A stretch of 64,000 nt of DNA from Nesterenkonia sp. E16_10. GTDB taxonomy: Bacteria; Actinomycetota; Actinomycetes; Actinomycetales; Micrococcaceae. Below, one piece after another: positions 520 to 13,014 of the stretch. A program made the translations under genes and the position numbers. Under the pieces are notes generated by a model. That model saw nothing but the letters and a program-made list of their open reading frames with translations, did not search any database and was not told the origin of the DNA. The first letter of the stretch is position 1, and each line of letters begins with the position of its first letter. The DNA is taken from the NCBI RefSeq assembly GCF_017347085.1, contig NZ_JADPSA010000005.1, positions 1 to 64,000 of the forward strand, read 5' to 3'.

Positions 520-777
520 TTACTTCTTGCCGCCAAAGCCCTTGAAGCGTGCGTTGAAGCGCTCGACGCGACCCTCGGAGTCCATGATGCGCTGCTTGCC
601 CGTGTAGAACGGGTGCGAGGCTGCGGAGATCTCGACGTCGATGACCGGGTAGGTGTTGCCGTCTTCCCACTCCATGGTCTTCTTCGAGGAGGTGGTGGAG
701 CGGGTGAGGATCTTCTCACCGGAGGCCAGGTCGTTGAAGATGACCGGCTCGTATGTGGGGTGGATATCAGACTTCAT
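520..777 (-). CDS. rpmE2: 50S ribosomal protein L31 type B
   Basis: This is an 85-residue L31 of the large ribosomal subunit. It opens [14 protein letters not shown] and ends FGGKK, as the type B family does. It contains no cysteine, so it lacks the zinc ribbon of type A L31 and is the zinc-independent (C-minus) paralogue. I chose the ATG at 777 because family members start MKSDIHP and AAAAGG lies about 9 bases upstream; an in-frame ATG at 795 would add six atypical residues. In actinobacteria this paralogue is often repressed by Zur and replaces zinc-containing L31 under zinc starvation. I could not find a convincing Zur box upstream. A strong terminator follows. Confidence 0.95.
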
Positions 778-900
778 GAAGTGTGTCCTTTTCATCTGCC
801 GCTGGATTTTGCCAGAAGCGTGGAACTGAGGGTGGGCCGAGTTTGGACCAACACAGCACTATATCAAATCCACCGCAGCCCGGCCCAGCACCGGCGCACC

Positions 901-986
901 ACCCCACCTGGGCAGTTGAGTTTTCCGGCAGTTGAGTTTTCCGGCGGTTACGTAGTAGCCGGAAAACTCAACTGCCCAGGCGGGGT
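901..986 (-). repeat. Palindromic element, copy 1, at the stop codon of the TauE gene
   Basis: Read on the minus strand, the element starts at the last bases of the TauE-family gene (TCGGCTGACCCC, including the TGA stop). It then forms a 19-bp hairpin (927-976) with a 12-base loop TACTACGTAACC and stem core CAGTTGAGTTTTCCGGC. The distal arm contains a 16-bp tandem duplication (911-926 and 927-942). Outer arms CCTGGGCAG and CTGCCCAGG extend the palindrome. A second copy in the same orientation relative to its upstream gene lies at 12615-12684. It may act as a terminator or mRNA 3' stabiliser, or be a miniature mobile element. Confidence 0.85.
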
Positions 987-1891
987 CAGCCGACGAAGAG
1001 GTTGCGCAGCATCACGAACAGCGCCACCAGGCCCAGGGTCACGATGATCAGGCGCAGCACCAGCGGCGAGAGCCTGCGGCCCACCCAGGCGCCGATCAGA
1101 CCGCCCAGCGTGGAGCCCACGGCGATCACCACCACCACCTCCCAGAGGATCACCCGGTCCGCAGGCTCGCGGAGCAGGTAGTCCACCAGCACGTAGCTGA
1201 TCGCGGCCGTCAGGTTCACGACGGCGACCAGCAGGTTCTTCACGCCGTTGGCCTGCTGGATGTTGGCCATCAGGAAGATCCCCAGAATGCCCATCAGCAG
1301 GATCCCCTGCGCGGCGACGAAGTAGCCGCCGTAGATGCCGGCCGCGAAGACCAGCAGCATCAGCACCAGGCTGACCGTGGGCATCGAGGGCTTCCCCGCC
1401 GTGGCCGCCTTCTCGGGCGCACCCTCCGCCGGATCGCCGGCGGTCTCGGCGTCCTTCTCCCGGGCTGCGGCGCGCGCCCGGACCCAGGCCGAGAGCCGGG
1501 GCTGGGCGATCACGAAGCCCAGCGAGACCACGATCAGAATCGGGGCGACCCGGCCGAAGACCTCTTCGGGAAGGGTGATCAGCAGCGCGGCGCCGATGAC
1601 GCCGCCCAGGATCGACGCCGGCACCAGCTTCTTCAGCACCGACTTCACCTGCCGGATCTCGCGCCGGTAGCCCCAAGCGCCGGTGAAGTTGCCCGCGATC
1701 AGTCCCATCGCGTTGGAGACCGTGGCGGAGACCGGCGGGACGCCCATGGCGACCAGCACCGGGAAGGTCACCAGGGTGCCGGAGCCGACCACGGTGTTGA
1801 TCGCGCCGGCCCAGATGCCGGCGACCAGGATGAGCAGCAGCTGTGCCAGGCTCAGATCGGTGAGGAAGAAGTCAGCGAGCGCCTCCATCAT
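986..1891 (-). CDS. TauE/SafE (TSUP) family anion exporter
   Basis: This is a 301-residue integral membrane protein of the TauE/SafE (DUF81, TSUP) family, which moves sulfite, sulfoacetate or other organosulfur anions across the cytoplasmic membrane. Two bundles of hydrophobic helices (residues about 15-130 and 172-300) are joined by a charged Ala/Glu-rich loop (about 133-170), and both halves carry the family's Gly-rich segments (GAINTVVGSGT; GIYGGYFVAAQG). The ATG overlaps the stop codon of the upstream ABC ATPase gene by four bases, so the two are translationally coupled. The substrate cannot be read from sequence. A large palindromic element begins at its stop codon. Confidence 0.9.
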   Translation of the reverse strand: MMEALADFFLTDLSLAQLLLILVAGIWAGAINTVVGSGTLVTFPVLVAMGVPPVSATVSNAMGLIAGNFTGAWGYRREIRQVKSVLKKLVPASILGGVIGAALLITLPEEVFGRVAPILIVVSLGFVIAQPRLSAWVRARAAAREKDAETAGDPAEGAPEKAATAGKPSMPTVSLVLMLLVFAAGIYGGYFVAAQGILLMGILGIFLMANIQQANGVKNLLVAVVNLTAAISYVLVDYLLREPADRVILWEVVVVIAVGSTLGGLIGAWVGRRLSPLVLRLIIVTLGLVALFVMLRNLFVG

Positions 1892-11815: not shown

Positions 11816-12622
11816 ATGACAGATTCCCCTGAGCGGCCCGCCCTGGCGGCGCCGCGCACCGAGGTCTACGCCGAGAAGGACCAGCTGGTCACGGTGGTCG
11901 CCGAGCGGCTGCTCGCCGTCCTGGTCGACGCCGCACGCCACCAGGGTGACGCCCATGCGGTGCTCACCGGCGGCAGCGCCGGCATCGCGGTCCTGGCGAA
12001 GGTCGCCGAACTGGTCGCGCGGCCCGGCACCGAGACCCCGCCCTGGCACAAGGTGCACTTCTGGTGGGGCGACGAGCGGCTGCTGCCCAGCGACGACCCG
12101 GAGCGCAACGCTCAGCAGGCCCATGAGGCGCTGCTCGACGCGCTGATCGAACAGCACGGTCTGCCCGAATCCAATGTGCACCGGATGCCGGTCTCCGAGG
12201 ACGCGTCGGATCCGGAGATCGGTGCGGAGATCTACGCGACCGAGCTGCAGGCCCACGCCGGGGACTCCCTCCGCTCGGGTCTTCCGCTCCCCCGCTTCGA
12301 TGTGCTGCTGCTCGGCGTGGGCCCGGACGGCCACGTGGCCAGCCTGTTCCCGGGCAAGGCCTCGCTGCACGTCACCGAGCAGACGACCATCGGTGAGGAA
12401 GAGTCCCCGAAGCCGCCGCCGCAGCGGATCACCCTGACCTTCCCGGCGATCCAGACCGCCGAGCGGGTCTGGATGGTGGTCTCCGGTGCGGACAAGGCCG
12501 AGGCCGCCGCGAAGGCGCTCACCCCGGGCACCGAGCTCACTGAGATCCCCGCGGTGGAGGCTCGCGGCGCCCGGGAGACCATCTGGCACCTGGACCACGC
12601 CGCCGCCAGCAAACTCGGCTAA
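11816..12622 (+). CDS. pgl: 6-phosphogluconolactonase
   Basis: This 268-residue hydrolase opens 6-phosphogluconolactone to 6-phosphogluconate, the second oxidative step. Family motifs are VLTGGSAGI near residue 45, FWWGDERLLPSDDPERN near 85 and LLGVGPDGHVASLFPG near 165. ATG 11816 is preceded by GCGGAAGGAT. It ends the pentose phosphate series. Its stop codon lies inside the second copy of the palindromic element. Confidence 0.96.
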   Translation: MTDSPERPALAAPRTEVYAEKDQLVTVVAERLLAVLVDAARHQGDAHAVLTGGSAGIAVLAKVAELVARPGTETPPWHKVHFWWGDERLLPSDDPERNAQQAHEALLDALIEQHGLPESNVHRMPVSEDASDPEIGAEIYATELQAHAGDSLRSGLPLPRFDVLLLGVGPDGHVASLFPGKASLHVTEQTTIGEEESPKPPPQRITLTFPAIQTAERVWMVVSGADKAEAAAKALTPGTELTEIPAVEARGARETIWHLDHAAASKLG

Positions 12623-12684
12623 CCCCTCCTGGCCAGTTGAGTTCTCCGGCTACTACGTAACCGCCGGAGAACTCAACTGCCGGG
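12615..12684 (+). repeat. Palindromic element, copy 2, at the pgl stop codon
   Basis: The element begins in the last codons of pgl (TCGGCTAACCCC, including the TAA stop) and forms a 17-bp hairpin (12634-12679) with loop TACTACGTAACC, identical to the loop of copy 1 in transcript sense. The stem differs from copy 1 at one paired position: TTTTCC/GGAAAA in copy 1 becomes TTCTCC/GGAGAA here, a compensatory T-A to C-G change. It lies between the convergent ends of pgl and secG. Confidence 0.85.
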
Positions 12685-12708: not shown

Positions 12709-12745
12709 AAAGCCCAGCTCGACCGTGATGGTCGAGCTGGGCTTT
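12709..12745. terminator. Bidirectional terminator between pgl and secG
   Basis: A perfect 15-bp stem (AAAGCCCAGCTCGAC and its complement) closes a 7-base loop. It begins and ends with A/T runs, so it can terminate both the pgl transcript on + and the secG transcript on -. Confidence 0.85.
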
Positions 12746-12762: not shown

Positions 12763-13014
12763 CTAGATGTCGGCGCCCAGCGGAACAATCAGGGCCAGGG
12801 CCACGATGATCAGGCCCCAGCTGACGGCCAGGGTAATGGTCAGCCGGTTCAGGTTACGCTCTGCCACGCCGGATGACCCCAGGGACGAGGTCACACCGCC
12901 GCCGAACATGTCCGACATGCCTCCGCCGCGACCCTTGTGCAGCAGGATCAGCAGGATCAGCAGCAGGCTGATCAGGGCGAGCAGCACCTGAAGTGCAATG
13001 GTCAGTGCAGACAC
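12763..13014 (-). CDS. secG: Preprotein translocase subunit SecG
   Basis: This 83-residue membrane protein is the small SecG subunit of the SecYEG translocon. It has two transmembrane helices (about 5-25 and 57-77) joined by a Gly-rich cytoplasmic loop with the typical HKGRGGGMSDMFGG motif. The start is GTG 13014 with AAAGG upstream. As in most actinobacteria it is downstream of tpiA, 70 bases away, on the same strand. Confidence 0.94.
   Translation of the reverse strand: MSALTIALQVLLALISLLLILLILLHKGRGGGMSDMFGGGVTSSLGSSGVAERNLNRLTITLAVSWGLIIVALALIVPLGADI

Follow-up and report, generated by a model that had tools for sequence, protein, structure and literature searches.

Repeats at gene ends are usually taken to be selfish DNA or terminators. 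Integron attC sites are laid out in the order RYYYAAC..GTTRRRY, with bulges. In Neisseriaceae, uptake sequences occur singly and as inverted pairs that form gene-end hairpins, they number hundreds to thousands per genome, and their species dialects track phylogeny (PMC1852404, PMC3630211). REP elements are small, dispersed, intergenic GTAG or CGTC palindromes that may form RNA hairpins (PMC3733652). None of the terms Actino, Arthrobacter, Micrococc, Leifsonia and Clavibacter matches the main text of that paper, and a REP-count table elsewhere includes an Arthrobacter species (PMC12306157). Stem-loop sequence families also recur within bacterial genomes (PMC2267715).

Here we describe a palindromic element of about 56-72 bp per copy from Nesterenkonia. 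The literature consulted on REP, uptake-sequence and stem-loop families gave no description of a Nesterenkonia palindrome.

The window copies and their family

Two copies had been noticed in the window, which is the whole stretch of 64,000 nucleotides analysed here (G000:C5:1-64000) from a source genome, G000, of 3.30 Mb in 51 contigs. Both copies lie where the initial annotation had placed them (Table 1); set against each other in inverted orientation, they are 93% complementary over 69 nt. Its description of 17-19-bp stems around an identical loop, TACTACGTAACC in transcript sense, was confirmed, and the one paired difference in the stem, T-A versus C-G, is real. Two details did not hold. 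The shared TCGGCT, taken as the start of the element, looks accidental, as the family consensus starts approximately at the ACCCC after it, and the stop codons, described as included in the element, are in both cases separated by 6 bases from the 56-nt core.

Table 1. Positions of the palindrome copies and neighbouring features in the window
Feature	Position	Strand	Remark
Copy 1, whole palindrome with outer arms, 3' side of TauE	901-986	-	arms 901-929 and 958-986; covariance-model match 924-979, 68.7 bits
Copy 1, core hairpin	927-976		arms 927-945 and 958-976, loop 946-957
Extra tandem copy of one arm, 16 bp, CAGTTGAGTTTTCCGG	913-928		absent from the 12 other G000 copies
TauE-like transporter gene, stop codon adjoins copy 1	986-1891	-	from translation; family name assumed
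Copy 2, 3' side of pgl	12615-12684	+	covariance-model match 12629-12684, 72.3 bits
Copy 2, core hairpin	12634-12679		arms 12634-12650 and 12663-12679, loop 12651-12662
pgl gene, stop codon before copy 2	11816-12622	+	name assumed
Separate ordinary terminator-like hairpin in the pgl-secG gap, short A and T runs	12709-12745		folding -32.2 kcal/mol
secG-like gene converging on copy 2	12763-13014	-	name assumed
bL31-like ribosomal protein gene downstream of copy 1	520-795	-	name assumed

The genes beside the copies are putatively those named in Table 1, the TauE-like transporter and pgl (presumably 6-phosphogluconolactonase) following the initial annotation, and the secG-like and bL31-like genes. 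Orthologues of pgl were found in 29 of 30 Nesterenkonia genomes. By a palindrome scan, copies 1 and 2 were the only palindromes in the window that scored at least 17; the 16-bp hairpin in the pgl-secG gap scored slightly under this threshold, and G012 (N. aurantiaca), in which the pgl copy is deleted, has a hairpin nearly identical to it. RNA folding of copies 1 and 2 gave -65.8 and -43.3 kcal/mol (z -9.5 and -7.6), and 0 of 200 shuffles were as good. Because of the tandem arm, the longest hairpin of the TauE copy is unlike that of the pgl copy; the duplication permits an alternative, longer hairpin there. No Rfam family reached its gathering score on the window.

The family was collected by pattern search and with a covariance model built from 13 aligned G000 copies. 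The 13 sites of G000 had best-strand E values of 1.4e-11 or lower with the model that these same copies had built, and one further match was doubtful (20 bits, E 0.5). Among 58 genomes including G000, the covariance search gave matches in 10, which were nine of the 30 Nesterenkonia genomes and one genome of another genus; the element was absent by this search from the 21 other Nesterenkonia genomes, all outside the clade described below. More copies, for which the initial annotation had proposed a search, do exist, with 13 in G000 and 4-16 in each of eight relatives (G011 4, G012 7, G016 6, G018 12, G020 15, G021 15, G022 13, G027 16). G021 is N. sandarakina, G018 is sp. LB17 and G027 is sp. 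Act20. We dropped a weak in-frame match (G012:C1:167766) and the sole match in another genus (G031) from the 103 listed matches, leaving 101, and set aside nine copies not 56 nt long, leaving 92 for the column statistics.

An exact-pattern scan of the GTDB species collection, which may leave out records close to the source genome, matched only Nesterenkonia, with 16 stretches from N. sandarakina, N. aurantiaca, sp. LB17 and sp. Act20. When 15 of the 30 genomes were placed in a tree, made from thirteen concatenated proteins of which many were missing in the outgroups, the nine element-bearing genomes formed one clade against six outgroups; the position of G021 within the clade was weakly supported (53). 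The loose pattern GGTTGAG..CTCAACC matched in 95 of 297 genomes of the order. Its counts were 5 per strand in G000, 6 in the highest other genome and 1 or 2 in most, and the matches listed had unlike interiors. Repeats of the form GGTTTCGATACG..ACTCAACC occur in Microbacteriaceae, and on these results we claim no relation.

Structure and position of the element

The 92 copies of 56 nt have a stem of 21 bp and a loop of 14 nt. GTTGAG (positions 8-13) and TCCGG (17-21) are almost invariant, position 12 excepted, and together with the ACGT at the loop centre they are kept alike across unrelated sites. This strand-symmetric ACGT is 90-93% conserved. Positions 14-16 and several of 2-7 are variable, with pairing largely maintained. 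The conserved half consensus runs from CCACCC.TCCTGG at its start to GGTTGAG; about 8 nt of it (CCACCC.TC) lie past the core, and the boundaries of the element are soft.

Stem base pairing is under selection. Columns 2, 3, 5, 7, 12, 14, 15 and 16 paired above all 300 shuffles of each, while loop pairs 23, 24 and 25, an internal control on the same sequences, were not above chance (173, 232 and 110 of the 300 shuffles reached the same level); the column shuffles ignore relatedness. Since the weakly conserved stem positions 14-16 covary and the variable loop positions 23-25 do not, the pattern points to hairpin pairing. Some pairing is left in the loop, since none of 300 shuffles was as high as its outermost pair, 22/35, and only 5 of 300 were as high as 26/31. 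Among the 13 G000 copies alone, 20 cells were changed on both sides, a count that none of 500 shuffles reached; a two-sided change was present in 7 pairs, which 17 of 500 shuffles equalled. Paired substitutions, suspected from the two window copies, are abundant across the family.

The same alignment bears on whether the element is simply the sequence-specific DNA site of a protein (a roadblock, an insulator or a site of chromosome organisation) with no role in RNA, the pairing being a by-product of dyad symmetry. The strand-symmetric conserved blocks with their ACGT centre would also suit such a site, as would the species-wide base change and the pairs of copies around single genes that are described below. 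Against it stand stem positions that covary though poorly conserved, beside variable loop positions that do not, and the strong 3'-end bias of the copies, and we regard a pure DNA site as quite unlikely.

This bias is seen in 94 of the 101 copies, which lie no more than 115 nt from one or more gene ends; of all copies, 45 are between two converging ends and seven have no end so close. The stop codon is a median of 13 nt from the core, and the association with stop codons proposed in the initial annotation was thereby extended to the family. Its further suggestion that the palindrome supplies gene ends applies to 15 of 140 stop codons, which lie inside the core and are all TGA (14 of them the TGA of GGTTGAG and one in the variable triplet). 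Six of the seven copies without a gene end represent a single locus, F45/F21, where the element lies between two gene starts in six genomes. Genes were called by a simple choice of open reading frames checked by protein matching rather than by a gene finder, and gene orders were cleaned by protein matching. An apparent replacement of gene F31 by F45 between copies was rejected as an artefact of antisense reading frames.

Inheritance, paired copies and a species-wide base change

The copies fall into eighteen locus families, most of them present in five or more species and a few patchy, in one to three species (F50-F51, F58-F57 and F39). Loop identity was 0.680 between orthologues, 0.540 between paralogues of the same genome and 0.536 between unrelated copies; for the arms it was 0.855, 0.858 and 0.829. 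From the orthologous sites and locus-bound loops, the copies are mostly old and fixed, inherited in place at shared sites, and late gains may have occurred at the patchy ones. Single copies have been lost in places (the pgl copy in G012, and the F11-F42 copy in G000, G012 and G011), so individual sites are not essential. On the 3' side of yajQ the 21 element-free genomes have no element, and several have there, by eye, hairpins of unrelated sequence.

These results bear on the mobile palindrome that the initial annotation had considered. A REP- or MITE-type palindrome moved by a transposase and still inserting at gene ends would be multi-copy, palindromic and intergenic, as this element is. 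Its half consensus continues about 8 bp beyond the core, nine species carry it against none of the 21 other members of the genus, a few of its sites are patchy, and the gene-bracketing pairs of G000 are what local spreading would give. Much current mobility is nevertheless contradicted by the orthologous sites and locus-specific loops, which leave room for the idea only at the few patchy sites. The Y1_Tnp domain (PF01797), the only transposase searched for, was absent from the source genome and from 10 further genomes, of which eight carry the element, in a search whose control was positive in 5 of 14 genomes. The exact pattern, confined to Nesterenkonia, had no match in viral contigs, and no plasmid DNA similar to the pgl copy was found. 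We therefore regard ongoing transposition as unlikely. The RAYT-driven form of it, raised in the initial annotation, was rejected on the absence of Y1_Tnp from these 11 genomes and of a GTAG or CGTC tag at the end of the half consensus. A phage or plasmid origin was rejected on the two empty searches.

In G000 four pairs of copies each bracket one gene. With random placement and 2000 or 2900 gene boundaries assumed, the simulated mean was 0.05-0.08 and 0 of 20000 runs had four. Gene F19 is absent from G012, G018 and G021, with one copy left at the site, and gene F23 is absent from G022, with one copy left, and from G011 and G016, where a scar of one copy was seen by eye. A search of the 21 element-free genomes gave no F19, and in seven of these with F16 in view Ogt and F16 are adjacent, with no F23 at the Ogt site. 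At G027:C1:1900336-1908400 an 8-kb insert, whose genes look to us like a TRAP transporter, lies between two copies in direct orientation that differ by one base in a 44-nt core.

An attC-like recombination site, the unit being a gene with its palindrome, would fit the absence of F19 and F23 with one copy left each, and the 8-kb insert bounded by two near-identical copies. But no arrays were seen, the palindromes are symmetric without the bulges of attC, and their GTT..AAC stands in the reverse order. Moreover, F18, which is bracketed in the clade, is also present in outgroup G002 (33% identity) without the clade element, and F47 is missing in G021 without the one-copy-left pattern. We give cassette recombination very little credence.

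Other palindromes were met at gene ends of the genus. In G002, each end of F18 carries a palindrome of a different type, TTGCCGCG..GATATAACC..GCGGCAA (G002:C1, about 1066950 and 1068133); one of this pair passes the palindrome scan and the other was recognised by folding and pattern. These are the same two gene ends that have the clade element in other species. Another long-stem family of G002, GATTCGAGCGGGGTTT..AAACCCCGCTCGAATC with loops of 14-22 nt, lies at C1 510643, 2423783 and 2552108; these are all its copies in the 400 kb covered, and by our own reading-frame calls every one of them follows a gene end. The palindromes of both types, counted in these 400 kb of G002, suggest that Nesterenkonia gene ends repeatedly carry lineage-specific palindromes. 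Separately, an unrelated dispersed repeat with arms GTGCAAT.TGTGCAGG .. GAATTGCACAAT was seen near the F50 gene ends of G021, G012 and G011. At the Ogt gene ends of G009 and G003 there is a repeat resembling a palindrome, GAGTGGCCACGAATC..GATTCGTGGCCACTC, whose loop is several tens of bases long.

In N. sandarakina, TTGC replaces TTGA in 12 of 14 scored copies, ten on both arms and two on one arm, and two copies have no change. A fifteenth copy, not 56 nt long and so unscored, has TTGC on both arms by eye. Counted by half-arms, A at position 12 has given way to C in 22 of 28 in this species, against 0 of 156 in the other species; the change is known from one N. sandarakina genome. The changed arms sit beside eight different stem triplets. 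The loops of this genome were 0.727 identical to their orthologues and 0.615 to their own paralogues, even though the paralogue loops were given the better of two orientations, and they were nearer the orthologues in 12 of 14 copies; of the other two, one was tied and one was nearer its paralogues.

Concerted evolution by gene conversion, in which homogenisation keeps the copies alike and nothing reads them, is consistent with the arms, which between paralogues match the orthologue level and exceed the unrelated one, and with the loop that the TauE and pgl copies have in common in several species. Within-genome alikeness of the variable triplet was also slightly high (0.602 against 0.585 in a label shuffle, a level reached by 1 of 200 shuffles). 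At this triplet, which is two bases from the changed base, unrelated copies of one subclade were more alike still, however, at 0.633; homogenisation has not extended to the loop between the arms, and eight triplets beside the changed base speak against long tracts. We consider conversion very unlikely as the source of the alikeness. Locus-specific loops and varied adjacent triplets favour parallel selection over both gene conversion and re-spreading; neither long conversion tracts nor new copies replacing the old ones would account well for the base change. The simplest account would be parallel selection by a putative factor reading position 12. Restriction avoidance was rejected as a cause of TTGC, since GTTGAG outside elements is not depleted in the N. 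sandarakina loci (12 seen, 14.6 expected) and GAG...TCC occurs at 1.22 per kb there against 0.89-1.56 in the other eight genomes.

We put forward, tentatively and as a possibility still open to doubt, that N. sandarakina moved from TTGA to TTGC in parallel at most of its copies, and that the palindromes are sites of a putative gene-end reader with species dialects. The gene-end palindromes of outgroup G002, two of them at orthologous ends that have the element in the clade, belong to the same picture. The fixed sites, the locus-bound loops and the one moved base are what separate replacement from parallel selection. If true, gene-end hairpins in Nesterenkonia would be a rapidly re-coded recognition system, and such a reader would mean a low-copy gene-end code in Actinomycetota with an alphabet changeable between species.

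Function and comparison with known systems

For the function of the element we lean, on balance, towards dispersed 3'-end hairpins that serve as bidirectional terminators or mRNA 3' caps, with their sequence policed by a putative factor. Clade-specific palindromes would have spread before the nine species split and afterwards, as is seen at the shared sites, were mostly inherited in place. Each copy would be a transcription terminator or a 3' mRNA cap working both ways, as two-way action suits the symmetry and the frequent place between converging genes. Conserved blocks across unrelated sites and one species-wide base change make it probable that a sequence-specific factor reads the hairpin or its DNA. 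Two neighbouring copies may occasionally act as repeats, and a gene flanked by them could in this way be deleted or acquired. The selected 3' RNA element offered as the other choice in the initial annotation is a better fit than mobility, but the ACGT centre and the base change suggest that the sequence is also read.

A stable hairpin behind a stop codon was found in the folding of the two window copies and in the position of 94 of the 101 copies. A role in termination is likely. A T tract directly after the stem was not enriched over the 92 copies, being seen at F0-F19 and in some F19-F7 copies, and its lack in most copies counts against classic intrinsic termination, as the F45/F21 locus counts against a terminator; the low number of copies, 4-16 per genome, also weighs against our preferred reading. 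In several species the F0-F19 copies and some on the yajQ side form the inner part of a longer stem that has A and T runs. At F0-F19 of G011 the inner palindrome has collapsed and the outer hairpin with its T run is kept (-29.1 kcal/mol), and G012, having lost the pgl copy, has the second hairpin there.

Like integron attC sites, the element is a palindrome directly behind a gene, and a gene may be missing along with one palindrome; unlike them, it has a symmetric stem, no array and the opposite core order. Like bidirectional intrinsic terminators, it forms a hairpin between converging genes, with A and T runs at F0-F19 and at some yajQ-side copies, but its stem sequence is common to unrelated genes and most sites have no T tract. 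Like REP elements it is palindromic, intergenic and dispersed, whereas it has no RAYT gene, only 4-16 copies per genome and orthologous sites. With uptake sequences it has in common one short sequence in inverted pairs that form hairpins behind many unrelated genes, together with dialects particular to species, and it differs in its 4-16 copies per genome. A half-site search of G000 allowing at most 2 mismatches gave 36 matches, which were 25 arms of the 13 copies and 11 single sites, against 3 for a reversed-pattern control; with so few copies an uptake signal was rejected, and the single half-sites (11 against 3) leave a small excess. Finally, like the stem-loop families of PMC2267715, it is a repeated family within a genome; here it was traced over nine species, at orthologous sites and with a dialect-like change.
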